A DNA stretch of 64,000 nt from Actinoalloteichus hymeniacidonis. GTDB lineage: Bacteria; Actinomycetota; Actinomycetes; Mycobacteriales; Pseudonocardiaceae. The notes below the pieces were generated by a model, which was not told the origin of the DNA, searched no databases, and saw nothing but the letters and a program-made list of their open reading frames with translations. The position numbers and the translations under genes were made by a program. Positions 6,354 to 35,005 of the stretch are shown piece after piece. Within the stretch, counting starts at the first letter, position 1. Every line of letters begins with the position of its first letter. The stretch covers positions 1,550,001 to 1,614,000 of the forward strand of contig NZ_JACHIS010000001.1 of NCBI RefSeq assembly GCF_014203365.1, given 5' to 3'.

Positions 6354-7891
6354 CGGGTCTCCTTCGTCAGGCGGCGGCTCAGCCGCCGTCGGACCAGGTC
6401 CACCGCCCGGGCGATCCGCAGATCCGCTTCGTCGGTCGGGCTCAACGCCATGTCCACGGCGCGATGGGCGATCTGCTGGAACACGATGGGATCGGCGTCG
6501 ACCTCGCCGGTACGGACCCGTGACCAGAACTCACGTTCGGCCGCAGGCCAGTAGTACTGGGCGGCGCGCACCGGCCAGGGCCCACTGCGGTCCTTCTCGC
6601 GAGACGCGGCAGAGGTGACCTCCCGCCAGGCATCGCCGAGGCAGTGCTGCAGCCTGCGGCCGACCGCCTCGGCGCAGCGGCGCAGCTCGGAGATGTGATG
6701 TGCGCCGATCGGGTCGTGTTCCTCCAGGTGATGCAGCACCGGAGGCGTGGAGGAGGAGAACCACTGCCGGTCCCGAGTCTGCCCATCCTGGTCGAATCCA
6801 TAGGCCTGCAACCGGAACCGGTCGCGCATCTCGACGGGGAGGCGGGCGAGGCCGTCGATCACCGAGGGCCTGCGCGGTGTGGCGTCCGAACCGGCCGGGC
6901 TCGCCAACAGCAGTGCATCGAGGTCGCGCCAGACCGCGCGATCGCAGGAGGCCGGTCGCGGATAGGCCCGGCCCTCTCGGCTGGTGTCGTACACGAGATA
7001 GGGGTCGCGCGCTTCGATGGAGGGCGCCCGCCATGCCCAGGTGAGGTAGGCATCGACGACCTGCTTGCCGGTGGCGTCGGGGATCAGCAGGACCGCGTGG
7101 CGGCTGCGGCCGGTGAGCAGTCCGCCGGGCCAGGTCGGTTCGGGGGGAGTGCCCAACGGGTCGGCGAGCGGCCGTTGCCAGCCGCAGCGGTCCGGTCCGC
7201 CCGCCTGCCTGCTGGCCGGGCTGGGCACGCCCGCGACCAGCGATTCGAAGAGATTGGCGCCGATCGGGTGAAAGGAGGTGGTGGAGCGCAATACTCCTTT
7301 CGTGCTATTGGATTCGGAGCGGCCCGCCACCCGGCGGGCGGTGCACTTTCCGGCCGGGCCGTAATAGAGCTGCACCAAGAGATGCAGGATGGCCTCGCCG
7401 GTGGGAATCGGCTGCGGTTCGACGTCGCTGAAGTGACCGAACCAGACCTGATTATTGCCAGCCGGTCGACCCGCTACCAGTTTGTTGACTCCGGACGCAA
7501 CTAAACATTCTTCGGCGAGCCTCGGCTCCTGCATCCATGGGCGATTCGGGTGAAATAGGTCGAACGATGCGTGATTCTCGTCGAAGTATGCCGAGACGTT
7601 CTCAGCGGGTAGCTCGCCGAGCTCGAGCACCGCATTCCGGGCGGTGATCCACGCGTCGATATCGGCATCAGCACTGGTTAACGACCGATCGAGGCCGGTA
7701 ATCTGAGCGGTGATCGCATAGAGGACTCGCCAGAGAGCCGCAGCTGCAGGTGGGATGGGTACGGCTAGATCGTCGATCTCGTGTGCTTTCCTGAACAACT
7801 CTCGTAATCCGATACTGCGAACCGTGCCGCCGGTACGTACCGGAATCCAGGGTTGTTCGGATAGGTGGAAAGTCGACCGGTTGTCGACCAT
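6350..7891 (-). CDS. cse1: Cse1 (CasA, Cas8e) large Cascade subunit (operon A)
   Basis: 513 residues from ATG 7891, chosen because AGGAG lies 8-10 bases upstream and the product then begins near FHLSEQPWIPV, the usual Cas8e N-terminus. Cas8e recognises the PAM and recruits Cas3. Visible family segments are FDLFHPNRPWMQ, GPAGKCTARRV in the position of the Cse1 loop, and a C-terminal helical bundle. It is the first gene of operon A. No cas3 lies upstream, where one would expect it; a hypothetical gene is found instead. Target cleavage by this complex would need a Cas3 supplied in trans, for example from operon B. Confidence 0.93.
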   Translation of the reverse strand: MVDNRSTFHLSEQPWIPVRTGGTVRSIGLRELFRKAHEIDDLAVPIPPAAAALWRVLYAITAQITGLDRSLTSADADIDAWITARNAVLELGELPAENVSAYFDENHASFDLFHPNRPWMQEPRLAEECLVASGVNKLVAGRPAGNNQVWFGHFSDVEPQPIPTGEAILHLLVQLYYGPAGKCTARRVAGRSESNSTKGVLRSTTSFHPIGANLFESLVAGVPSPASRQAGGPDRCGWQRPLADPLGTPPEPTWPGGLLTGRSRHAVLLIPDATGKQVVDAYLTWAWRAPSIEARDPYLVYDTSREGRAYPRPASCDRAVWRDLDALLLASPAGSDATPRRPSVIDGLARLPVEMRDRFRLQAYGFDQDGQTRDRQWFSSSTPPVLHHLEEHDPIGAHHISELRRCAEAVGRRLQHCLGDAWREVTSAASREKDRSGPWPVRAAQYYWPAAEREFWSRVRTGEVDADPIVFQQIAHRAVDMALSPTDEADLRIARAVDLVRRRLSRRLTKETR

Positions 7892-18695: not shown

Positions 18696-18765
18696 TTCGC
18701 GTTTTCGGGTCGCTATCCCGCAAAACCGGTACGAAGTGTCGGTCGGGGGCTTTAGCTTCCATCCC

Positions 18766-21387
18766 GTGACAGAGCAACCACCCGATTTCCCGCCGAAGGG
18801 GCGAACAGCCGCCGACGGCGATCGCGAGCAGTTGTGGTTGTGGGCCAAAGCCGGCAAGGGCAGCGTCCCGCATCCGCTGATCTGCCATGCGCTGGACACT
18901 GCGGCGGTGGCCTACCAGCTGTATCCGGTGCTTCTGGGATCGGCGATCCGTATGGAACTCACCGTGGCCTTCGGTGAGTTCGAAGGCATCGGCGACGCTG
19001 AGGAGAACGCTCGCCGATGGGTGGCGGTTCTGTGCGGACTGCACGACCTGGGCAAAGCCTCACCTGCATTTCAAGCACTCCGATACGACTTGATCGAGAA
19101 GCTGTATAAGACGGAGCAGAGCAGGCTCCAGACTCTGAAGCGGGTGCGACCCACGGATGGGCCTCGAGTGGACGCTCCACACGGTTGGATCACACACCTC
19201 CATCTCGATCGGCTGCTCCGGCTCGCGAAGGCCAGCCCGTCCATCCTCGCGACCGTGGCCCCCGGATTGGCCGGACATCATGGCGTTATCCCCGATGCTG
19301 CGCGTCGGAGTGAGACCGCTGGTTATCCCCGCGATCACGGTGGCAAGGTATGGGAACAGATCGCTGATCAGTTGGTCGACCGACTGGTAGAGCTGTGCGG
19401 GCTCTCCCATTGGCAGCTGCGGCCTTGGTCTCAGGCCTACCTTGGGTTAGCTGGTGCGATCGGCCTGACCGGCCTTGCCTCGGTCAGCGACTGGATCGCG
19501 TCGAACTCGCGCAACTTCCCTTGGGCTGGCGTGGATTTCGAGCTGGTGGAGTACGCGCCGAAAACGGCAGCGCTGGCGCACCAAGCCATCCACGCCATGC
19601 GCTGGACGAAGTGGACTCCGCCCGAGGACACCCGTTTCAGTACGTTGTTTCCAGGTACCGAGGATGCCCCGACACCGCCGCGACCGGTGCAGGTTGCGGC
19701 GGAACGAATGCTGGCCGATGTCACCGAACCGGGGCTGCTCATCGTCGAGGCCCCTACGGGAGAAGGCAAGACCAAGCTGGGATTCCAGGCGGCTGCCCGG
19801 CTGGTGAGCGCGCTCGGGTTGGCCGGCCTGTACCAGGGCATGCCGACGCGGGCCACCGGAGATCAGGCCTTCGAGGAATTCGACGATTTCGCCGCTGGTT
19901 ATCAAGCCGATCTGCGCGTCCGGCTCCTCCACGGTGCTGCCGATCAGCATCCGAGAATCAAGGAACGGAACCCGCCCACCAAGAAGGGTGAGGCGAAACG
20001 TCTCGATCCGGAGGCGATCGTCGATGTGGGACCCGACCACCCCGAAGAGGACATCACCGAGGTGCGGGAATGGTTCGCGGGTAAACGCGGAATCATCGTG
20101 CCGGTCGGCATCGGCACGGTCGATCAGATGCTGATGGGCATGATCCGGGCCCGGCATTCGTTCGTTCGGCTCACCGGACTATCGAACAAGGTGCTGATCC
20201 TCGATGAGGTACACGGCTACGACATCTACATGTCCACGTTGATCGACTGCCTCATCGAATGGGCGGGCAGGCTCGGCATTCCGATGATCCTGATGTCGGC
20301 CACCCTGCCATCCGGCCGCAAAAGCGAGCTGATCCGCGCGTGGCGCGCGGGACGGCTTGGCAGGCCCGTCACCGAGGTGCCCCTGGTATCGACCGCCCAG
20401 GTCTACCCCGAATTGACGTGGGCCGATGCGGCGGGAGTTCGGACCTGGAGCGATCTGCCCACCGATCCGGGCGCCAGCCGGGTCTCGCAACGCAACGGCA
20501 ATCGGATCATCGAGGTGGACCTCAATCCGCTGGCCGGTGATGACGCGGATCAGCGCGCGGAGTGGCTGCTGGACCAGGTCGACCTCGCCCCCTCCGCTCG
20601 GCCCATCGGTATCGCCGTGGTGCACAACCTGGTACGCCGAGTCGGCACGACCGCCGCAGCGTTGCGGCGTGCGATCAAGAGGCGAGGCGGCAAACGCCGC
20701 TACGACATCGACCTGATCACCATCACCGGCCGGATGTCGGTTGCCGAGCGTGGTAGGGCCAACCAAGCGGTGAAGGACAGCTTCGGTCGAGGCGTGAGCC
20801 GATCACGCCCGACCATCGTGATCGGAACCCAGGTTCTCGAGCAGGGGCTCGATGTGAGTTTCGATCTGATGGTCAGTGATCTGGCCCCCATCGACTGCCT
20901 GGTGCAACGTGCTGGACGGGTCCTGCGGCACGAGGACCGAGGGGCGGCCCCACTCACGGTACGGCTGGTGATCACGGGTCCGACCTGGAAGGGCGAGCGG
21001 CTGGAGTTCCCGCGCTACACGGTGGGGATCTACCCCGCGTTGTTGCTGCTGCGGACGTGGCTGTTGTTGAGGGCATTGCCCACTACCGACTCGGGCCCGG
21101 AAGCGGCGACGGGTGATGGTGTGCGGCTCATCCGCTGTCCCGAGGATCTCCGTGGACTTGTCGATCGACTCTATGCCGAGGATTTCGATTTACCGGTCCC
21201 GGCGGGCTGGGCGAAGGACTGGGCCAAGGCGAAGGTCGCACTCGACAAGCGGTTCGACGATGACTACCGCGCCCGATCGTTCCGGATCCCCACACCGTCC
21301 GATGGAAAAGTCTTCCAGCGCTTGACCAACGATCCGACACGAGCGAACCGAACCCGCAAAGAGGGGCGTCCCGATGACCACCGATGA
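18766..21387 (+). CDS. cas3: Cas3 HD nuclease-helicase, lacking its C-terminal domain (operon B)
   Basis: 873 residues from GTG 18766 (GTG 18736 is also possible). Cas3 is recruited to Cascade R-loops and degrades DNA. The HD nuclease shows PHPLICHALD near 37-44, HD in GLHDLGKA (93-94) and GHHGVIPD. The helicase has Walker A PTGEGKTK (about 329-336), the DEVH box (about 478), SATLP (about 509) and QRAGRVLRH (about 712). The reading frame stops in the linker after RecA2. The expected C-terminal domain is encoded by the next ORF in a different frame, overlapping by 14 bases. All catalytic motifs appear intact. Confidence 0.94.
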   Translation: MTEQPPDFPPKGRTAADGDREQLWLWAKAGKGSVPHPLICHALDTAAVAYQLYPVLLGSAIRMELTVAFGEFEGIGDAEENARRWVAVLCGLHDLGKASPAFQALRYDLIEKLYKTEQSRLQTLKRVRPTDGPRVDAPHGWITHLHLDRLLRLAKASPSILATVAPGLAGHHGVIPDAARRSETAGYPRDHGGKVWEQIADQLVDRLVELCGLSHWQLRPWSQAYLGLAGAIGLTGLASVSDWIASNSRNFPWAGVDFELVEYAPKTAALAHQAIHAMRWTKWTPPEDTRFSTLFPGTEDAPTPPRPVQVAAERMLADVTEPGLLIVEAPTGEGKTKLGFQAAARLVSALGLAGLYQGMPTRATGDQAFEEFDDFAAGYQADLRVRLLHGAADQHPRIKERNPPTKKGEAKRLDPEAIVDVGPDHPEEDITEVREWFAGKRGIIVPVGIGTVDQMLMGMIRARHSFVRLTGLSNKVLILDEVHGYDIYMSTLIDCLIEWAGRLGIPMILMSATLPSGRKSELIRAWRAGRLGRPVTEVPLVSTAQVYPELTWADAAGVRTWSDLPTDPGASRVSQRNGNRIIEVDLNPLAGDDADQRAEWLLDQVDLAPSARPIGIAVVHNLVRRVGTTAAALRRAIKRRGGKRRYDIDLITITGRMSVAERGRANQAVKDSFGRGVSRSRPTIVIGTQVLEQGLDVSFDLMVSDLAPIDCLVQRAGRVLRHEDRGAAPLTVRLVITGPTWKGERLEFPRYTVGIYPALLLLRTWLLLRALPTTDSGPEAATGDGVRLIRCPEDLRGLVDRLYAEDFDLPVPAGWAKDWAKAKVALDKRFDDDYRARSFRIPTPSDGKVFQRLTNDPTRANRTRKEGRPDDHR

Positions 21388-21790
21388 CTCCACCGACGAT
21401 GCAGGGTACCGAGGTCCTGCCGAACTCCGGCTCATCATCTGCATCGCGTCGGAACCGGCGTCCGATGGCGGCTGGTGGGTGACGCCGTTGGAGGGTGACC
21501 TGCCCCTGGCGCTGGATCGCACCGTCGACCTGTCCGAGGAGATGAAGACGGCGCTGCTGAACTCCGAGATCCGTCTGGCGCCGCCGTACGAGTTCCCTGA
21601 CGTGGTGATCGAGGCTCTGGAGGAACTTCCGCTGCCCGCCGCGTTCGAGGGGGTGGGCTGGCTGGCTTCGCACCGTGCGCTGGTCTTGCACCCCGGCGGC
21701 GTCGAGATCGGGGGCGCCCTGTTGCGCTATGAGAAGGGGTTGGGATTGGTCGCCGAAGAGGAGATCGCCGACGGCTACGGCACCGACTGA
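21374..21790 (+). CDS. small protein resembling a detached Cas3 C-terminal domain
   Basis: 138 residues from ATG 21374, with GAGGGG 7-12 bases upstream inside cas3. The two genes overlap by 14 bases in different frames (cas3 frame 1, this frame 2), so it is probably made by translational coupling. Its pattern matches the Cas3 C-terminal domain of type I-E as I know it: a first strand (ELRLIICIAS), a linker with PLALDRTVDLSEEMKTALLNSEIRL, PDVVIEAL, and a closing GALLRYEKGLGLV where intact proteins have L-x-Y-x-x-x-L-G-L. In intact Cas3 this domain lies over the helicase cleft and helps contact Cascade. It could also be a frameshifted tail. Assignment is by pattern, not alignment. Confidence 0.7.
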   Translation: MTTDDSTDDAGYRGPAELRLIICIASEPASDGGWWVTPLEGDLPLALDRTVDLSEEMKTALLNSEIRLAPPYEFPDVVIEALEELPLPAAFEGVGWLASHRALVLHPGGVEIGGALLRYEKGLGLVAEEEIADGYGTD

Positions 21791-23527: not shown

Positions 23528-24163
23528 GTGAGTACGGATTCGATCGGTATCCGGCCATCCAGCAGTCGGAAAGAATTCACCAATTCTCTCTATTTGTTGT
23601 ATTTCAAGCTGAACAGCGGAAACGACCATCTGGTGTCGGATGCACGGCGGGTGCTCGCGGCGTTGCGGCGAAGCTTGACCGGCCCCGAGCAGGCATCTGC
23701 TGCGTACCAGTTGGTCTTCGATGCGAAACCCGCCGAAAAGGACGAGGAGGCATTCCTTCTTGTCGGCGGACTGTTCGGTATCCATCCGCAGCCGCGAATG
23801 TCCAGTGCCTATAAGGCTCGGCGCACGCTGGGTGCTGCCATGCGCAGCCTCAATGCCGAGAAATATGGCACGGCAGATCGACGCTTCGAGCAACTGTTGG
23901 GAATGAACCGGCGCAACCTTCCGCACTATCTTCGCCAGACGGTGCGATTGTTGAGTACCAAGAAGGTTTCGCTCGACTATGGACTGCTCTTGGACGACGT
24001 GATCGTCCTGCTGGGTGAGCGCACCGATGAGGCGGAGCGACGCCGAGTTCGCCTCGCCTGGGCCCGTGACTATCACCGACGCCCGAGCAACACGGCCGAC
24101 GGAGAGTCGGACGAGTCCCCCGCTGGCGAGCCCACCACTGACTCTAGCGACACGGAGAACTGA
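23528..24163 (+). CDS. cse2: Cse2 (CasB, Cas11e) small Cascade subunit (operon B)
   Basis: 211 residues from GTG 23528. Helical Cascade subunit that stabilises the displaced strand. Signs are the basic N-terminal helices (EFTNSLYLLYFKL), ARRVLAALRRSLTGPEQASAAY, RRFEQLLGMNRRNLPHYLRQTVRLL and LDYGLLLDDV, matching the CasB pattern. The stop and the cas7e start share one base (TGATG). The acidic tail (GESDESPAGEPTTDSSDTE) is an uncommon extension. Confidence 0.9.
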   Translation: MSTDSIGIRPSSSRKEFTNSLYLLYFKLNSGNDHLVSDARRVLAALRRSLTGPEQASAAYQLVFDAKPAEKDEEAFLLVGGLFGIHPQPRMSSAYKARRTLGAAMRSLNAEKYGTADRRFEQLLGMNRRNLPHYLRQTVRLLSTKKVSLDYGLLLDDVIVLLGERTDEAERRRVRLAWARDYHRRPSNTADGESDESPAGEPTTDSSDTEN

Positions 24164-25380
24164 TGATCATCGAACTGCACCTGCTTCAGTCCTTCCCGGT
24201 GAGCAATCTCAATCGGGACGACATGGGCCAACCCAAGACGGCCACCTTCGGGGGTGTCCCGAGGGGGCGGATCTCCAGCCAGTGCTTGAAGCGTTCCGCG
24301 CGGCAGCTTTTCGGAAAGAACGGGCTGCGGGAGGACGAGACCGGGGTTCGAACCAAGAGGCTGTTGCACCAGGCGGCGGTGACGTTCGTGGAGAAGGGTT
24401 ATACGGAAGAGGATGCCAGGCTGATCGTGGAGGAGGGTTTGGCGACGTTGGGCTTCGGCATCGACCGCAGCACCCAGCTCACCGAGTATCTGCTTTTCGT
24501 CGGGCGCGAGGCGTCGAGTTTCTTGGCGCAGTACTGCATCGACAGGCAATCGGAACTGGAGGTGAAGGTCACGGAGCGAAAAGACGCCGCCGCGAAAGCA
24601 ACGCAGAAGAAGACCACAGCCAAGGACGGCGCGAAACCGGCTGTCAAGGCCGCGAAGACCAAACCGTCCAAGGAGCAGGTCGCCGCAGCATCCCACATCC
24701 TCGACGCCCGCAAGGTTGCCGACATCGCCCTGTTCGGCCGGATGATCGCCGACAACAAGGGGTTCAACGTCGACGCGGCATCCCAGGTCGCCCATGCCAT
24801 CTCGACCCACGCCGTGGCCACCGAGTTCGACTACTACACCGCCGTCGACGACGAGAAGCCCGAGGACTCCGCAGGCGCGGACATGATCGGCACCGTCGAC
24901 TTCAACTCGGCCTGCTATTACCGCTACGCCAACGTGGACCTCGGCCAGCTGCTCAAGAATCTGGACGGCGACGCCGACCTGCTGGCCCGTACCGCGAGCG
25001 CCTGGCTGCATGCCTTCGTGCAGGCCCGGCCCAGCGGCAAGCAGAACTCGATGGCCGCATTGACCATGCCGCACACCATGCTCGGCGTGGTCCGAGACGC
25101 CGGAAGTTGGAATCTGGCCAACGCGTTCCTCAAGCCAGTGGACAGCCTCGACGTGATGACCGATTCCACCGAACTGCTGCTGCGGCACTTCGACTCGCTG
25201 CGCAGCTTCTACGGCGATGCGGGCATCCAGTCGGTCACCGCCGCGACGGTATCCGGCGACCTCCCGCACATCGATCCCGCCGAGGCCGTCCCGAGCATGG
25301 CCGAGTTCGCGAACCGGGTGCTGACGACGGCGGGCGTCGCGAGCCGAGAGCAGGACCCGACGGCGGTTCCGGCGCCGTGA
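24163..25380 (+). CDS. cas7e: Cas7e (Cse4) backbone subunit with a Lys/Ala-rich insertion (operon B)
   Basis: 405 residues. Cascade backbone protein. Core motifs match the family: LHLLQSFPVSNLNRDD, FGGVPRGRISSQCLKRSAR, ADIALFGRMIAD, HAISTHAVATEFDYYTAVDD and ACYYRYANVD. Residues about 139-171 form an inserted low-complexity segment, roughly 10 Lys and 9 Ala in 33 residues, just before the ALFGRM strand; the operon A protein has only a short loop there. The insertion resembles histone-H1-like or Ku-like basic tails and could add DNA or crRNA contacts along the filament. Coupled to its neighbours at both ends. Confidence 0.95.
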   Translation: MIIELHLLQSFPVSNLNRDDMGQPKTATFGGVPRGRISSQCLKRSARQLFGKNGLREDETGVRTKRLLHQAAVTFVEKGYTEEDARLIVEEGLATLGFGIDRSTQLTEYLLFVGREASSFLAQYCIDRQSELEVKVTERKDAAAKATQKKTTAKDGAKPAVKAAKTKPSKEQVAAASHILDARKVADIALFGRMIADNKGFNVDAASQVAHAISTHAVATEFDYYTAVDDEKPEDSAGADMIGTVDFNSACYYRYANVDLGQLLKNLDGDADLLARTASAWLHAFVQARPSGKQNSMAALTMPHTMLGVVRDAGSWNLANAFLKPVDSLDVMTDSTELLLRHFDSLRSFYGDAGIQSVTAATVSGDLPHIDPAEAVPSMAEFANRVLTTAGVASREQDPTAVPAP

Positions 25381-26162
25381 CCCTCTCATTGGCGCTGTGT
25401 TTCGACGCCCCCATGCAGTCGTGGGGCACCCGGTCCGCACACATTAAACGGGACACCGCCAGGGAACCGACGAAGTCCGGGGTGGTCGGCCTGCTGGCCA
25501 GCGCGTTGGGGGTGAGCCGCGACGACGACGAGAAGGTCGCCGCGCTCGCCGAGCTGAAGCTTGGGGTTCGTGTGGATCGGGAAGGCCTGGTGGAGGTCGA
25601 CTACCAGACCGCGCAGAACGTCCCGAATACGGCAGGTGGTGGGCATCGGACGGTGGTTAGCCATCGGTACTACCTGTCGGATGCGCTGTTCCTCGTCGTC
25701 CTGGGCGCGTCGACATTGCGGCAGGAAGCATTGTTGCGGCGGGTGGAGATCGCGCTGCGGGTGCCAGAGTGGCCGCTCTACTTCGGACGCAAGGCGTTCG
25801 TACCTGCTCGGCCGCTGTTGCGGGATGCGAGTTCGGACGCGTTGTCGGGTTGGGGGCTGTCGGATCGGCCGGTCTGCGAGGTGCTGCACGCCCATCCCTG
25901 GCTGGAGACCGGACCGAGTCGTGAGGCCGTCGCCCGACGCTTCCGGGGCAGCCGTGAACCCATCCCACCGCCGCCGTTGAGAGCGGTGCAGGACTGCGCG
26001 ACCACCGACCAGCGGGCGGAGATCCGCCCCGACCACCCGCTGTCGTTCCGGCGGGGAAACCGGCGCTTCGCCAGCCGTAGCTTCAAGACCATCGACATCG
26101 AGTTCACCGAGGAACTGCTCATGGCGGGAGGCGCTCGTGTTCCTGAGCAGATTGACTGTTGA
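25377..26162 (+). CDS. cas5e: Cas5e Cascade subunit (operon B)
   Basis: 261 residues from GTG 25377, overlapping the cas7e stop by four bases. Family motifs: LCFDAPMQSWGTRS, REPTKSGVVGLLASALG, GGGHRTVVSHRYYLSDALFLV, and PEWPLYFGRKAFVP. It binds the crRNA 5' handle. Its 3' end overlaps the cas6e start by 26 bases. A longer open frame upstream in the same phase runs through cas7e and is not real. Confidence 0.94.
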   Translation: MTLSLALCFDAPMQSWGTRSAHIKRDTAREPTKSGVVGLLASALGVSRDDDEKVAALAELKLGVRVDREGLVEVDYQTAQNVPNTAGGGHRTVVSHRYYLSDALFLVVLGASTLRQEALLRRVEIALRVPEWPLYFGRKAFVPARPLLRDASSDALSGWGLSDRPVCEVLHAHPWLETGPSREAVARRFRGSREPIPPPPLRAVQDCATTDQRAEIRPDHPLSFRRGNRRFASRSFKTIDIEFTEELLMAGGARVPEQIDC

Positions 26163-26817
26163 CGTGACCTCGCGGAGCTTCCGCCGGGACTTGGCCAACG
26201 TCCACGAGATGCATCGCACCGTGATGTCGGCCTACCCGGACATCACGGCGGACACCCCTGCCCGCGCGCACTGCGGGGTGCTGTGGCGGCTCGACGAGCG
26301 GGAACGCGGTTTCGTGATCTTCGTGCAGAGCCGAGTGGAACCGAAATGGGCGGGCCTGCCGGATGGCTACGTCATCAAAGAACCGGAGGTCGGACCCTTG
26401 GAGCCGTACCTCCCGACGATCGAGCCCGGCCGCAAACTCGGATTTCGATTGGTGGCCAATCCGACCCGTGCGGTCTTCCCGGAAGGATCGGTGCCGGGCA
26501 ATCGGGGCCGGGGCAAGCCGGTGCCGGTCAGGATGCCCGCTGAACAGCTGGACTGGTTGGCGCGCAAGGGCGAGCAGCACGGTTTCGTGCTGCCGCTAGG
26601 CAGGAATGGGGAGGCCGATATCGCACCCGCACCTCGTCCGAAGCTGACCGGCCGATCGGACAAGAACACGATCACGGTCGAGCCGGTCCGCTTCGACGGT
26701 CATCTCGTCGTGACCGACGCCGATTCGATGCGGGCAGCGGTGTTCGAGGGGATCGGCCGCGCCAAGTCCTATGGCTGCGGTCTGCTCAGCCTCCGGCCGG
26801 TCCGCGCGACGACGTGA
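26137..26817 (+). CDS. cas6e: Cas6e crRNA endoribonuclease (operon B)
   Basis: 226 residues from GTG 26137. It carries the candidate catalytic His26 in EMHRTVMSAYP and the Gly-rich C-terminal loop IGRAKSYGCGLL. It processes repeats in the I-E system. No repeat array is seen near operon B, so its substrate is either the array at 2.5-3.05 kb or one outside the window. It is last in the operon; a strong hairpin terminator begins 6 bases after its stop. Confidence 0.93.
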   Translation: MFLSRLTVDVTSRSFRRDLANVHEMHRTVMSAYPDITADTPARAHCGVLWRLDERERGFVIFVQSRVEPKWAGLPDGYVIKEPEVGPLEPYLPTIEPGRKLGFRLVANPTRAVFPEGSVPGNRGRGKPVPVRMPAEQLDWLARKGEQHGFVLPLGRNGEADIAPAPRPKLTGRSDKNTITVEPVRFDGHLVVTDADSMRAAVFEGIGRAKSYGCGLLSLRPVRATT

Positions 26818-27075: not shown

Positions 27076-27264
27076 ATGGCAACTCCGAACTATCCGACGT
27101 GGCGAAAGACGAGTCGGAGCAACGGCCAGGGCGGCGAATGCATCGAGATCGGTTCGGCCCCGGGCTGGGTCGGCATCCGCGATACCAAGAACCGTGACGG
27201 TGGGACCTTAGTGGTCGATCGTGCCGTGTTCGGTGCCTTCCTTGCTGCGGTGAAGAGACACTGA
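27076..27264 (+). CDS. DUF397 protein, orphan
   Basis: 62 residues from ATG 27076, with GAGGAG directly upstream. The family signature is plain: WRKTSRSNGQGGECIEI, VGIRDTKNRDGGTLVV, and a final FGAFLAAVKR. DUF397 proteins usually lie next to an Xre-type helix-turn-helix regulator and act with it in development or as antitoxin-like partners. No such regulator is beside it here, so it is an orphan or its partner is elsewhere. Confidence 0.88.
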   Translation: MATPNYPTWRKTSRSNGQGGECIEIGSAPGWVGIRDTKNRDGGTLVVDRAVFGAFLAAVKRH

Positions 27265-27730
27265 GTCATCGGGCCGCCGCCCCGTTCCGGTTCGCTGAGT
27301 CTGGGGCGCTGGCCTGGTGCTCGACGACCGGTGCCCGCGGTTGTGAGCTTTGGTGGTCAGTGCACTCGACCCCACAGGCTCGCCCTGGTCGCATCGCTAC
27401 CGCCTCGGAGGCGCGTAGTTCCCAAGCGGTCGCGAACTGGCTGCTGGCCAATCCGCCGCACGCGACGCGACCGCCGGGTTCGGTACTGGGGGGCGGGGGG
27501 AGCGCAGTGGCGGAAAAACCGGTGCCGCTTCGGCAGCCCGCCGAACCGACCGAATCGCTCGCTTGGCGGCGCGAGCGACATGGCATCGTGGGCATGCACC
27601 GGCTTCTTACGTCGAAACAGATGTCGAACTGCATCGGAACGAGTGGGATCGAGGCAACAAGCCCCCGGAAACGGAGAAGCTGCGGCAAGGTGGGCGTCAC
27701 GGCGTTGCGCCGTGGCGGGGGTGGTGGGAC
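27265..27730. other. no supported gene
   Basis: About 465 bases between DUF397 and the NB-ARC gene. Several reading frames are open on both strands, but none has a start signal or recognised motif. It probably carries the promoter of the NB-ARC gene. Confidence 0.4.
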
Positions 27731-29920
27731 ATGGAGGAGGATCACAACGGGGCCGCTTCGGGGTGCGGCAACATGGTCGCTGGTGCGCTCACGGGGCAAG
27801 CGGTACAGGCGGGGCTGATCCGCGGCGACATCCACTTTCATTCGAGCGTTGGCGCCGCACCGTACCCGCCTCCCCGGCAGGTTCCGCATTCGTCCGGCCA
27901 TTTCACTGGGCGAGTGGCCGAAATCGACCTATTGAATGCTCTACGAACAGATCACCAGACGCGCAGGCTGGTCCTCGCGATGTCAGGGCTCGGTGGGGTG
28001 GGAAAGTCGACGTTGGCGAGACGCTGGCTGCACCAGATCTGGCCGCATACTGGAGATGGGCAGTTCTATGCAGAGCTCGGTGGATTCAGCGGCGGCAGCC
28101 CGGCATCCCCGACCAAAGTCCTCGCGGGCTTCCTACGTTCGATGGGCGTGGGCGAGGAGCAGATCCCCGCAGACCTAGCGGATCGAGCCGCGCTGTTCCG
28201 GACGTTGACGGCCGATAAGGCCGTTGCAGTGTTGTTGGACGACGCGGCCACAGCCGCCCAGGTCCGCCCGCTGCTTCCGTCGTCTTCCCGCAGCGTGGTC
28301 GTTGTGACCAGCAGGATGAGGCTCGTCGGGTTGAGCCTGGAAGGCTGCAGATTCGTCGAGCTGAGACCCTTGGACGAGTCGAGTTCGGTGGAGTTGCTCA
28401 CCAACATCGTCGGCGCGCAGCGAACCGACGCCGAGCCGGCTGTCACCACTGCGTTGGCGCGACAGTGTGCCGGTCTTCCCGTTGCATTGTCGGTGGCGGG
28501 CGCCCGATTGGCGGCACGTCCTCGACAACCGATTAGAAGATTGGTAGCGGAGCTGTCTTCGAGTGATAAGCGGCTGTCCCGCCTAGCAGTGGATGCGATG
28601 TCGGTCGACGCGGTCTTCGATCTGTCGTATCGGAACCTCGAACCCGAGGTAGCCGAGGTATACCGATTGGTGGGCTGGCATCCGGGGCGGGAGTATGGCG
28701 CCGCCGTGATAGCCGCTGTGGCAGGTCTACCGGTGGACGTGGTCGAGGAGTTGCTCGCTGGCCTCGCCGAAGCATCGATGCTCGAGGAGCCGGCCGAAGG
28801 TCGATTTCGACAGCATGACCTCCTTCGGCTGCACGCGGCAGCACAATGCGACCATGCCAGGGGTGTGCAATGGGTACGCGCTATGGCGGAGTACTACCTA
28901 CGGCGGGCAGTAGGCGCTGACCTAGTGGTTGTGCCGCTTCGGCCGAGGGTGGGTCCGGTCTACGCCACTGCGCGATCGGCGCCGCCCGCATTCGACTCCG
29001 CTGCCGCAGCGCTGGGTTGGCTCAGGCTCGAACGAGAGAATCTGTCCGTCGTATTGGAACAAGCCGTCCAACATGAGTGGTTCGAGTTGGCCTGGCAATT
29101 GAGCGAGTCTTTGTGGGGGCTGTTCCTGCACTCGCGTCGTGCCGAGGAATCACTGGCGGCGATCAGGCTGGGGATCGACGCTGCACGCAGATGTGGCCAT
29201 GTCTTGGGCGAGGCCACCTTGATGGGGCAGGAAGTGTTCGTCCTTCTTGAGATCGGCTCGACGGACGCAGCCCTCCAGTCCGGTACCGAGGCGTTGACGC
29301 TCGCCCATCGGGTGGGCGATCGGCAGCTCGAAGCCAGCGCCCTCGCCCATCTCGGCGAAGCTGCTCGGAAGCGTTGCCATTTCACCGACGCGCTGGATTA
29401 TCTACGTCGTTCTCTGGACTTGGAGGAAGGCCCCGGTGCTACCCGAGGCGCAGCATTTCGTCACCGTTCGATCGCGCGAGTCCTGCTCGACCTGGACCGC
29501 GTCGACGAGGCGATCGAGGAGTTCGAATGTGCCCGTCGGTTGCTGACAGCGATCCCTGATCAGGTAGGCGCGGCTCGGATAGCGATGTTTCTCGGCGGTG
29601 CCCGCTTGCGTGCAGGTCGCCCAACCGAGGCCGAGTCAGCGTTGGCCGAGGCATTGACGGTGATGGAGTCGGGCGGTTCACCGTTCTATCAAGCCGAGGC
29701 ACACCGGGGCCTTGGCGAGGTCGCCGAGTACCGAGGTGACCAAGCCAAGGCCGAGCACCACTACCGGCGCGCCCTTGATCTGTATGGCGGGGCTCGGATG
29801 TCACCGAAGTCGGAGATCGTGCAGGCCGCTCTGGAACGACTTCGGGTCGCCGATATCGACGCAGTGGGCGAGTCTCCCGGCCCGGACACACCGGGTAGCA
29901 GTCCTACCGACATCCTGTGA
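27731..29920 (+). CDS. NB-ARC/TPR STAND-family ATPase
   Basis: 729 residues from ATG 27731; this start gives the usual short N-terminus MEEDHNGAASG...GDIHFHSS of streptomycete-type NB-ARC proteins. The P-loop GLGGVGKST is at residues 86-94, the Walker B AVLLDDA is near 165, a sensor VVVTSRM near 193, and GLPVAL marks the ARC helix. The C-terminal 300 residues contain TPR-like repeats (EASALAHLGEAARKRC, GAAFRHRSIARVLLDL). Such STAND ATPases oligomerise on binding a ligand and act as regulators or in defence. It lacks an N-terminal DNA-binding or effector domain, so it may work with a separate partner. Its 3' end overlaps the next convergent gene. Confidence 0.85.
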   Translation: MEEDHNGAASGCGNMVAGALTGQAVQAGLIRGDIHFHSSVGAAPYPPPRQVPHSSGHFTGRVAEIDLLNALRTDHQTRRLVLAMSGLGGVGKSTLARRWLHQIWPHTGDGQFYAELGGFSGGSPASPTKVLAGFLRSMGVGEEQIPADLADRAALFRTLTADKAVAVLLDDAATAAQVRPLLPSSSRSVVVVTSRMRLVGLSLEGCRFVELRPLDESSSVELLTNIVGAQRTDAEPAVTTALARQCAGLPVALSVAGARLAARPRQPIRRLVAELSSSDKRLSRLAVDAMSVDAVFDLSYRNLEPEVAEVYRLVGWHPGREYGAAVIAAVAGLPVDVVEELLAGLAEASMLEEPAEGRFRQHDLLRLHAAAQCDHARGVQWVRAMAEYYLRRAVGADLVVVPLRPRVGPVYATARSAPPAFDSAAAALGWLRLERENLSVVLEQAVQHEWFELAWQLSESLWGLFLHSRRAEESLAAIRLGIDAARRCGHVLGEATLMGQEVFVLLEIGSTDAALQSGTEALTLAHRVGDRQLEASALAHLGEAARKRCHFTDALDYLRRSLDLEEGPGATRGAAFRHRSIARVLLDLDRVDEAIEEFECARRLLTAIPDQVGAARIAMFLGGARLRAGRPTEAESALAEALTVMESGGSPFYQAEAHRGLGEVAEYRGDQAKAEHHYRRALDLYGGARMSPKSEIVQAALERLRVADIDAVGESPGPDTPGSSPTDIL

Positions 29921-31846: not shown

Positions 31847-32086
31847 TCCGTGCTTGACTGGGTTTCGCGGTGGCACGATCTGCTGCTCATAGGCTGGCGC
31901 CGGTCCAGCCTCCCGGTGGGATTCGGCTTCTGCGCTGTTGAATCGGAATGCTTCGGCGGCGGTGCGCTCCACCACTTGGGGTAATTCCGGGTCTCGCGTC
32001 GAATCGCTCTACGGAAACCACTCGAATGTGATCCAGCTCTCGGCGACACTATGGGTGAAGCCGGTGCCAGCGGAGGGTGGGACTGG

Positions 32087-35005
32087 GTGACGGTCGAGTT
32101 CAAAATTCTTGGAGAGACCAGGATTCTCGTCGGTGGCACACCGGTCGAGTTGAAGAGAAACAGAGTCCGATGTCTTCTCGCTCTGCTGTTGTTGCATGCA
32201 AATACAACGGTGAGCCGGGATCGGTTGCTGCACTTGGTGTGGTCCTCTTCCACCGCTGTGGATTCCAGTCAAGTCGATCGATCTTCGCTTCAAGATCATA
32301 TTAAGTTGGTGCGGCGATCGATCAAGAACCTGCCTGCGAGTCTCAGTTCGGTGGGAGCGGGTTATCGGTTGGATGTCGAGAAAAAGTTGATCGACTATCA
32401 CCGCTTCGGTGACGTGTTGGCTGCGGCGCGTAGTGTCGGTGTTGGAAGGGATCCCGCGCGGGTACGCGATCTACTCGCACCTGTCGTCGATCTCTGGGAC
32501 GCGCAGCCGCTGCTCGATCTGAAGAGTCAGCGGGCAGAATCCCTGCGCGAGGAGATGATCAAGGATCGATTTCTTCCTGCCTGCCTGCTGTTGGCGGAAA
32601 GCCATCTCGCCTTGGGCCACCCTGGCGATGTCCTGGCGCTATTCGACCGGGTCGAAGCTGCCCACGACGTCGACCAGCGTTTCGCGGTGGCCCGGATTGA
32701 CGCTCTCATCGGCCTCGGCAGACACGAGGATGCCGCGAGCCTGTGCGAGCGGACCCTAGAGGATCTCTCGAAACGAGGGCGATTCATCGGGCCGGAGATT
32801 CAGGCCCGGCAGGAACTGCTTCGTCCATCTCCGCAATCGAGTGTGCGCCCCGCGCCCATCCCCGTCGCAGTCGAGATGCCGCGACCGCAGCAACTGCCCC
32901 AGGCGAGCAACCTCGTCGGGCGTGCCGATCTGCTGGCCAAGCTTGACGACGCGATGCCAGCGGAGCATGAGCCGATCTCCGGCGTGATCGTCCTGCATTC
33001 CGCAGGAGGGTGTGGCAAGACGGCTCTTGCGGTGACCTGGGCCCACCGCCCGCCTCAGCTGGCCCGCTTTCCGGACGGACGGCTCTTCGTCGATCTCGAG
33101 GGCTACGGTCCGGGTCGCCCGGCGGACTCCGGTCAGGTATTGGCTGACTTCCTGGTGAGTTTCGGTGTCGATCCCGACGCCATTCCCGCCAGGCTTGATC
33201 AGCGTGTGGACCGCCTCCGCGAGCTCCTTGCGGGGAAGCGGGTCTTGGCGATCCTGGACAACGCCCGCGACGAGGCCCACATCCGTCCTCTCCTGGATGC
33301 TCTGTCGGGATGCCACATCCTTGTGACGAGTCGCAACCGCTTCGAAGATCTCACCGTCCACTACGGCGCCGAGGAGATCGAGGTGGGTCCACTCACGGTT
33401 GAGTCCAGCCGCCGGTACCTCACAAGGGGAATCGGGTCGCCGCGTGCGGTCGGCGACCCGATGGCCTTCAACGCTCTGATCGATCTCTGCGGCGGGATCC
33501 CGCTTGCGCTGCGCATCCTCAGGGCGCGCGCATCGAAGCAGCGCTCGACGCCGTTGGCGGCGTTACTCGAAGAGGAGCCGAGGCATTTGCTGGAATACGG
33601 CTCAAACAGGCCGTTGTCTGTGGTCTTCTCGGGGTCCTACGAGGTGCTCGGTCCTGAGACGCGGTGGTTGTTCCGCAGCCTTGGCGGCCATCCGGGCGCC
33701 ATCTTCGGGGTGGAGGCGGCGGCGGCCGTCGCCGATCTGAGTGCCGAAGCCACCCGACGTAACTTGGAGCTGTTGGTAGAGGCGCATCTCATCGAGCCGG
33801 AGGTGCGCGGGAGGTACCGTTTTCACGACCTCTTGCGGGAGTACGCGGTTGGGCTGCTGGATCTCGATCCCACGGGCCAGGAGCGAACCGCGGTGGTGCG
33901 GCGGATCCTCGATTGGTATCTGCTCGTGGCGCGCAACGCCGAGTCGGTGATCAACCCGACCAGAGAGCTGGATCCGTTGCCCGGCGAGGTCTCCACCCTC
34001 CAGCTACTCACCTTCTCCGGGGTCGATGACGCGATGGGATGGTTCGAGCGGGAAGGCCCCAACCTGTTCGCCGCCGTCGAAGCAGGGCATACCTGCGGTA
34101 TGGACGCGCAGACGTGGCGAATAGCGAACACCTTCGGCGATGTCTTTTATCGATTGGGACAGGCAGACCGGGCTACCCGCGCACTGGAGACGGCCCTGGC
34201 CTCGGCCCGGCGGATTCGAGAAAACGAGCCTGCCGCCGAGTTCAAGGTGCTGAACAATCTGGGATTCTCCTACATGAACCAGCGGCGAAATAGCGACGCA
34301 TTTCGGGTGTTCCGGCTGGCATATTCGGGTTTCGAGCGAATGGATCATGCTGAAGGGATGGCCAGCATCCTAGCTAATCTGGCATTCCTGGAGACCAGAA
34401 TCGGGGATCCGCAGCAAGCGGTGGTGTTAGCTGAGAAATCTTTGGACATCTATACCCGACTGAATAAAATTTTGGAGGTTGGTCAGCTGCGCGTCGTGCT
34501 CGGTATTGTCTATCGGATGGTCGGGGATAGATCCAACGCGATCGGATCATTGTGGCTCGCCGTGGGTATCGGACGTGAAATCGACGCCCTTCAGGTGACG
34601 GGAGACGGGCTCCTCGAGTTGAGCGTCGTCTATCTGGAAATGAAGGAAATCGACCTTTCCGTTAGCTGCGCTTCTGACGCACTCGCGCTGCTGACACAGG
34701 TCAAGAGCGGTCCTCGCATCGCGGCGGCGCACCTGGCGCTGGCAAAGGCGCTGTACGGGCAGTCCGATCTCGTGGCGGCCGAACGGCATGCGGGTGCGGC
34801 GGTGCATCTGCTCCGACTTCGCCCCGATGCGGAGGCTGCCGTCCGCGCGCTGGAAATCCTGTCCGACGTGCTCATCGCACAGGATCGATTAGCGGAGGCA
34901 CGCGAGGCGACCGGGCTTGCCATCGAACTGCTGGCGGCGGGGCACCCGCTTCAGGCGGACCTGCGCTCCAAGCTGGCGGCTCTCGGGACGACTTCCCCTC
35001 GATAG
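32087..35005 (+). CDS. SARP/AfsR-type regulator with NB-ARC and TPR domains
   Basis: 972 residues from GTG 32087, preferred over ATG 32051 because GGAGGG precedes it. Domain order: OmpR-like winged helix (FKILGETRILVGGTPVELKRNRVRCLLALLLLHANTTVS, residues 1-90), bacterial transcriptional activator domain (about 95-245), NB-ARC ATPase with P-loop GGCGKTA near 306 and ILDNARDE near 390, then TPR repeats to the end. AfsR-like proteins activate secondary-metabolism or development genes. It is divergent from the glycosyltransferase-like gene. A leucine TTA codon is not obvious, so control by bldA is not indicated. Confidence 0.92.
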   Translation: MTVEFKILGETRILVGGTPVELKRNRVRCLLALLLLHANTTVSRDRLLHLVWSSSTAVDSSQVDRSSLQDHIKLVRRSIKNLPASLSSVGAGYRLDVEKKLIDYHRFGDVLAAARSVGVGRDPARVRDLLAPVVDLWDAQPLLDLKSQRAESLREEMIKDRFLPACLLLAESHLALGHPGDVLALFDRVEAAHDVDQRFAVARIDALIGLGRHEDAASLCERTLEDLSKRGRFIGPEIQARQELLRPSPQSSVRPAPIPVAVEMPRPQQLPQASNLVGRADLLAKLDDAMPAEHEPISGVIVLHSAGGCGKTALAVTWAHRPPQLARFPDGRLFVDLEGYGPGRPADSGQVLADFLVSFGVDPDAIPARLDQRVDRLRELLAGKRVLAILDNARDEAHIRPLLDALSGCHILVTSRNRFEDLTVHYGAEEIEVGPLTVESSRRYLTRGIGSPRAVGDPMAFNALIDLCGGIPLALRILRARASKQRSTPLAALLEEEPRHLLEYGSNRPLSVVFSGSYEVLGPETRWLFRSLGGHPGAIFGVEAAAAVADLSAEATRRNLELLVEAHLIEPEVRGRYRFHDLLREYAVGLLDLDPTGQERTAVVRRILDWYLLVARNAESVINPTRELDPLPGEVSTLQLLTFSGVDDAMGWFEREGPNLFAAVEAGHTCGMDAQTWRIANTFGDVFYRLGQADRATRALETALASARRIRENEPAAEFKVLNNLGFSYMNQRRNSDAFRVFRLAYSGFERMDHAEGMASILANLAFLETRIGDPQQAVVLAEKSLDIYTRLNKILEVGQLRVVLGIVYRMVGDRSNAIGSLWLAVGIGREIDALQVTGDGLLELSVVYLEMKEIDLSVSCASDALALLTQVKSGPRIAAAHLALAKALYGQSDLVAAERHAGAAVHLLRLRPDAEAAVRALEILSDVLIAQDRLAEAREATGLAIELLAAGHPLQADLRSKLAALGTTSPR

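Follow-up and report, generated by a model that had tools for sequence, protein, structure and literature searches.

A separate gene for the Cas3 C-terminal domain in a type I-E CRISPR-Cas operon of Actinoalloteichus hymeniacidonis

The only fission of Cas3 named in the available excerpts of a review is that between the HD nuclease and the helicase (PMC7074321). The C-terminal domain (CTD) of this protein, as described in the available part of another review (PMC5965380), touches both RecA domains and closes the channel for single-stranded DNA, and may transiently leave the Cas3 core on recruitment, opening the channel. According to the same part of that review, Cas3 contacts Cascade via the CTD, at the base of Cse1, and Thermobifida fusca Cas3 without the CTD has a lower affinity for Cascade. 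Here we describe a type I-E operon from a 64-kb stretch of the Actinoalloteichus hymeniacidonis genome (6,306,207 bases, one contig), this whole stretch being called the window below, where a small gene directly following cas3 encodes the CTD as a separate protein, and analyze the distribution and possible role of such detached domains, called C3C, in related genomes.

Identity of the small protein and layout of the operon

The protein encoded by the small gene, 138 amino acids (aa) in length, is the Cas3 CTD. It matches the PF18395 (Cas3_C) family over profile positions 17–107 of 107 (E 5.7e-8, 33.6 bits, with the cut-off equal to 27), and this is its sole Pfam match up to E 1, the NCBIfam scan having yielded no match. 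The protein closes with the motif G-x-L-L-R-Y-x-x-x-L-G-L, present as GALLRYEKGLGL. Moreover, Cas3_C is matched at E ≤0.1 by each of the 30 aligned C3C members, among them the one from the window and three rows that consist of the C3C-like section of a Cse1 fusion. When the profile of these 30 rows was compared to all PDB sequences, it matched residues 846–947 of the 949-residue chain 4q2c, Cas3 of Thermobaculum terrenum (E 9.7e-12, the next match having E 0.26). The profile of 23 separate Cas3 proteins covers residues 37–812 of the same chain (E 2.7e-181), and thus between them the two products span a single known Cas3 and are divided in its linker. The lone C3C sequence in a phmmer search of PDB did not find Cas3, yielding only weak CutA-type matches (best E 0.4).

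The predicted structure agrees with this assignment. The AlphaFold2 model of C3C has a mean pLDDT of 81 and pTM of 0.69, and its top five Foldseek matches are Cas3 chains, with E 1.7e-5 for 4q2c (TM 0.64 by the query length, root-mean-square deviation (rmsd) 4.4) and E 3.8e-5 for 4q2d; matches to three T. fusca Cas3 chains are weaker (E 0.08–0.14). The 883-aa Cas3 itself, on the other side of the break, has no Cas3_C match up to E 1 in the Pfam and NCBIfam scans. It matches PF18019 (HD, E 1.4e-38), helicase families, and TIGR01587 above the cut-off, and the HD and SF2 helicase motifs are present and share one open reading frame (ORF). The full type I-E Cas3 architecture, with the CTD in the same chain, is therefore not that of the window Cas3, the domain residing in a separate ORF.

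The operon is located on the plus strand of the window, in the order cas3, small ORF, cse1, cse2, cas7, cas5, cas6, and extends to position 26817. Its features are as follows.

18736–21387, plus strand: cas3 (HD nuclease, SF2 helicase and linker), 883 aa, GTG start
21361–21366, plus strand: Shine–Dalgarno-like GAGGGG, 7 nt 5' of the small-gene ATG
21374–21387, plus strand: 14-nt overlap of the cas3 end and the small gene, a candidate coupling element, identical overlap in genomes G001 and G002
21374–21790, plus strand: C3C (the name used here), the detached Cas3 CTD, 138 aa, ATG start, PF18395
21839–23473, plus strand: cse1/cas8e, Cascade large subunit, PF09481, E 2.9e-99
23528–24163, plus strand: cse2/cas11, PF09485, E 2.4e-24
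24163–25380, plus strand: cas7/cse4, PF09344, E 5.5e-113
25377–26162, plus strand: cas5, by operon position and phmmer matches to equally placed ORFs of related loci
26137–26817, plus strand: cas6/cse3, PF08798, E 3.7e-58

The family matches of cse1, cse2, cas7 and cas6 exceed the cut-offs, which places the operon in type I-E, with cas5 assigned by position and homology only; PF09485 is the sole Pfam match of Cse2. The cas3 gene and the 138-aa ORF are read in different frames. Long ORFs are common in GC-rich DNA, but this one goes beyond chance, as third-position GC in its frame reaches 0.848, and the two alternative frames contain three and four stops across the same stretch. Among 100 searched relatives, the ORF was found in both genomes of the same genus (59% identity in G001 and 48% in G002); in both, the ATG of the small gene likewise lies 14 nt inside the cas3 end and is preceded by a purine-rich stretch. 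These observations bear out the original prediction, made from the sequence alone, that cas3 stops in the linker after the helicase, and that an ORF starting inside it (14-nt overlap, different frame), with its own ribosome binding site and the closing motif given above, encodes the CTD.

Distribution of the split and fate of the domain

For comparison, the 883-aa Cas3 was used as a query to search 390 genomes of the family. The close group comprises 31 intact loci including the window (E ≤4.4e-81, the other 30 having 38–63% identity), beside which there is a Cas3 remnant in G178. The alignments in this group extend to at least query residue 867, with the exception of G413 (to residue 780). 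The distant group (E of at least 2.8e-76, 31–41% identity) consists mostly of frames of approximately 900–1000 aa. In 30 of the 31 close-group loci the domain is encoded directly 3' of cas3 in another frame, and one locus (G048) has no domain. The chosen start overlaps the cas3 stop by 4 nt in 26 out of these 30 loci, by 14 nt in three (those of the genus), and by 8 nt in one. The 4-nt NTGA overlap is weak evidence, as TGA not preceded by C always yields NTG, and the nearest start was chosen; the non-random part of the overlap is the frame, with offset 2 in 26 of the 30 family loci.

A scan of an 84,980-species collection with two peptide patterns yielded 191 relatives, the best 80 of which were used. 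Among these best 80 of 191, 32 are close-group members (Cas3 E ≤1e-113), with the domain stand-alone in 21, in the Cse1 frame in six, and missing in five. In the remaining 48, the domain is on Cas3 in 43 (a part of these calls being based on weak matches, E up to 0.01), undetected in five, and stand-alone in none. In the phylum set, Cas3_C matches were observed in 16 out of 396 genomes, all of them within frames of 918–1665 aa; the absence of stand-alone domains there is weak evidence, since PF18395, when applied as a genome-wide DNA probe, undercounts, missing even the window genome's own copy. The counts given here are based on the Cas3 search, the collection-wide contig scan and local profiles. 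In plasmid records, the small protein gave no match, and Cas3 matched 74 records, all at less than 60% identity (29–31% for the 20 listed).

A tree of 77 Cas3 helicase regions (quick IQ-TREE, no bootstrap) comprises 47 clade loci, 31 from the family and 16 others, and 30 fused-type rows hand-picked from the available loci. Not counted were L112 (both Cas3 and Cse1 incomplete, no C3C), L079 (the Cas3 remnant of G178), and 15 contigs duplicating loci of family genomes. The 47 split loci, which are actinobacterial, form one side of a branch with SH-aLRT 100, and named members of this clade come from Pseudonocardiaceae, Micromonosporaceae, Streptosporangiaceae, Nocardiopsidaceae and Jiangellaceae. 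The sister of the clade (support 92) is locus L119 of Actinomadura kijaniata, where the domain is inside the 909-aa Cas3 frame. In the clade itself, 36 loci encode the CTD in a gene of its own 3' of cas3, seven have it fused to Cse1, four lack it, and none has it on Cas3. A single division of Cas3, at the boundary of linker and CTD, took place in an actinobacterial ancestor. The subsequent events require two changes in the tree for the Cse1 fusion (the starred branches force one) and three for the CTD loss, and the HD and DExH motifs of Cas3 are retained clade-wide.

In the seven fusions, the CTD is in frame at the Cse1 N-terminus, and both Cas3_C and Cse1 are above the cut-off in one ORF. They are observed in Actinocrispum wychmicini, Actinokineospora auranticolor, Acrocarpospora catenulata, Spongiactinospora gelatinilytica, Streptosporangium saharense, Micromonospora sp. 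HM5-17 and genome G018, and in several of them the linker between the CTD and Cse1 is Pro/Ala-rich. The Actinocrispum fusion was modeled with a mean pLDDT of 91; the value exceeds 90 over most of each domain and drops below 50 at residues 120–126, in the linker. Foldseek matches this model with Cse1 (3wvo, E 3.3e-30) and, at rank 24, with Cas3 (4q2d, 115 columns, rmsd 2.6, probability 1.00, E 1.8e-3). These fusions, found in seven out of 47 loci, are the strongest clue to the CTD function, and point to docking on Cascade as a selected role.

The four type I-E loci lacking the CTD (L114/L075, L105, L110, L116) come from Streptoalloteichus, Dactylosporangium and two Nocardiopsis. No such ORF is present in their cas3–cse1 gap, and whole-genome searches with up to 150 candidates scored in each genome found no second C3C elsewhere. 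In two of the four genomes the only domain matches are inside frames of 994 aa (E 3.6e-6) and 943 aa (E 0.006). Cas3 of these loci keeps the HD motifs and helicase motifs I, II and VI, with motifs III and V varying in some of them.

Genome G140 has a lone Cas3_C match (locus L042, positions 6551–6880, minus strand, E 5.2e-16), perhaps a duplicated Cas3 tail; it lies in a 387-aa frame without a Cas3 match, and a fused-type Cas3_C match is located approximately 6 kb away.

Possible role of the detached domain

The observations are probably explained by a single Cas3 fission, after which the CTD has acted in trans as an adaptor between Cas3 and Cascade and as a channel lid, with later capture by Cse1. 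The analysis was computational throughout: the domain identity, the one-clade fission, the fusions and the losses were computed, and from these we infer the translational coupling, the binding partners and the recruiting and lid role. The CTD gene would have been kept between cas3 and cse1, with its translation probably coupled to the cas3 end. C3C would bind in trans to Cse1 of the target-bound Cascade and to the top of the Cas3 helicase, recruiting Cas3 and then shutting the single-strand DNA channel once it is loaded. In several relatives, the later fusion to Cse1 would fix the CTD on Cascade. Existence as a separate protein is plausible for a domain that touches Cse1 and transiently leaves the Cas3 core, and if the contact with Cascade has been selected, capture by Cse1 would be expected. 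Cas3 may, as the original prediction suggested, be assembled or regulated in two parts.

More tentatively, the CTD may have changed sides and become a Cascade subunit, either free or as the N-terminal domain of Cse1. Cascade would then carry its own Cas3-capturing lid, and Cas3 would be lidless until meeting the target-bound Cascade, a safety lock that a fused Cas3 would lack. The clade offers three natural constructs, with the CTD apart, on Cse1, or missing. With Cas3 in two parts, leaving out a single small protein might suffice to switch it, a property of interest in the design of controllable Cas3 tools.

Several observations do not sit easily with an adaptor and lid acting in trans. Of the three proteins, C3C shows the weakest conservation, its mean identity being 33%, compared to 47% for Cas3 and 49% for Cse1. 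Its distances correlate equally well with those of Cas3 and Cse1 (Spearman 0.73 and 0.73; 0.74 for Cas3–Cse1; 30 loci), and hence do not pick the partner. The absence of the CTD in four of the 47 loci with the Cas3 motifs kept means that the domain is not required everywhere, or else that those systems are weakened. According to the available part of PMC11417383, a type I-C CTD on its own showed no DNA binding, and CTD structures are widely variable, so that the roles may differ among subtypes. Finally, the search of the 64 kb for a CRISPR array was negative, as was that of the whole window genome with two generic patterns of I-E repeats; therefore, the window copy may be idle. The second of these patterns matched both congeners, and arrays are present in the available flanks of 20 out of 47 split and 14 out of 30 fused-type tree loci. 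As 15 CRISPR repeats are listed for A. hymeniacidonis in the accessible portion of PMC5168871, the host repeats may differ from the generic I-E patterns.

Some of these features could also be expected if the CTD were a vestige, largely dispensable after the fission and slowly being lost, with the small ORF having little function. The C3C sequence changes faster than Cas3 or Cse1, and the losses occurred in three separate tree changes, with HD and most helicase motifs kept and no second C3C in the four genomes, apart from the matches in the 994- and 943-aa frames of two. Still, the CTD is kept in 43 out of 47 loci, directly 3' of cas3, C3C is predicted to be foldable by the AlphaFold2 model, and the seven Cse1 fusions retain the domain above the Pfam cut-off, so that we consider a vestige unlikely. 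The free CTD could alternatively be mainly a dose-dependent lid, or off-switch, of Cas3 and not an adaptor to Cascade. A lid or filter role of the CTD has indeed been proposed (PMC5965380 and, as a “substrate filter”, PMC11417383, both in the excerpts available), and a separate gene permits a different stoichiometry. However, the Cse1 fusion in seven loci ties the CTD dose to Cascade, not to Cas3, which makes a primarily regulatory function rather improbable.

The split could be merely apparent if programmed ribosomal frameshifting yielded some full-length Cas3, and in the window the two frames do openly overlap by 62 nt. However, the offset of the CTD frame is 2, 1 and 0 in 31, 11 and 1 of the 43 loci, respectively, the open overlap in one locus is only 4 nt, and seven loci join the domain to the next gene instead. 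The varied offsets and the 4-nt open overlap make a conserved frameshift signal unlikely and fit coupled re-initiation; we consider frameshifting very improbable, with slippery sites not having been searched for. A lone frameshift, a pseudogene or a sequencing error has next to no probability, as both congeners and one supported clade show the same split, and this explanation is refuted by conservation. Unbroken cas3 in close relatives, which the original prediction had regarded as a sign of such an accident, is found in none of the 47 clade loci. The family does include broken cas3 genes, with a stop inside one frame in L040 and several frames in L041 and L063, but they match the window Cas3 weakly (E 2e-53 for L040, 7e-22 for L041 and 6e-39 for the first fragment of L063) and fall outside the close group. 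These three belong to the fused-type lineage and form a contrast to the conserved split.

Neighboring genes and comparison with described systems

A search of the window genome for cas1 (cas2 was not searched) gave no match by PF01867 or TIGR03638. In the available flanks, cas1 is present at three of the 47 split loci (L078, L062, L110), compared to 21 of the 30 fused-type ones, and several of the nine fused-type loci without cas1 sit on short contigs. Profile searches in 30 out of the 31 family genomes with a split locus found cas1 adjoining this locus in G407 and G413 only. The split clade seems to be a type I-E lineage that is mostly interference-only. In the 15.8 kb of the fused sister L119, cas1 is likewise missing, and hence the cas1 loss may predate the fission, the link between the two being unproven.

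Clustering of neighboring frames, for which no tns profile was used, yielded mainly frames passing through CRISPR arrays, which make up the two largest clusters, and small clusters. In the window, the frame after cas6 (27198–27818, plus strand) contains a stretch of approximately 50 residues that resembles a part of the window Cas6; this stretch may have been left by a partial duplication or may be an artefact of composition. Downstream of the operon, positions 27563–29920 of the plus strand encode an NB-ARC and TPR protein (PF00931, E 7.6e-14); frames antisense to this gene cluster with the operon-side frames of congeners L006 and L007, and so the NB-ARC gene may be common to the genus. A long ORF at 31985–35005 (plus strand), whose start we take to resemble a SARP-type regulator, clusters with frames near split loci L006, L007, L049 and L064.

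The closest described proteins are fused type I-E Cas3 of Thermobaculum terrenum (4q2c) and Thermobifida fusca (4qqw). All their parts, that is, HD, helicase, linker and CTD, are present here as well, but in two polypeptides, and in none of the 47 clade loci is the CTD on Cas3. In the Cas3'/Cas3'' split of types I-A, I-B and I-D, Cas3 domains are also encoded by separate genes; however, in those types the break separates the HD nuclease from the helicase (PMC5965380, the part available), whereas here these two are joined and the CTD is apart. In Cas3–Cse1 fusions, both natural (PMC9241507) and engineered in E. coli (PMC3890593), a Cas3 part is covalently attached to Cse1, as in our seven loci, but according to the accessible portions of these papers it is the whole Cas3 that is joined, while here it is the CTD alone, the nuclease-helicase being a separate protein. 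Variants I-E2, I-E3 and I-E5 of the 2025 classification (PMC12669027) are likewise rare I-E derivatives with altered architecture; they are distinguished by an extra nuclease, HNH or PD-(D/E)xK, in Cas5 (HNH, I-E2) or Cas11 (I-E3), or by linkage to a transposon (Tn7, I-E5), and a detached Cas3 CTD is not mentioned in the available part of that paper.

The original prediction knew of no described detachment of the CTD; in agreement with this, neither a separate Cas3 CTD nor a CTD–Cse1 fusion is described among the full-text matches listed, as judged by titles and abstract starts and with subscription papers mostly outside, so that a prior description is possible. In comparison with the systems above, the split-CTD systems are a variant of type I-E with a defined clade, and not a new kind of system.

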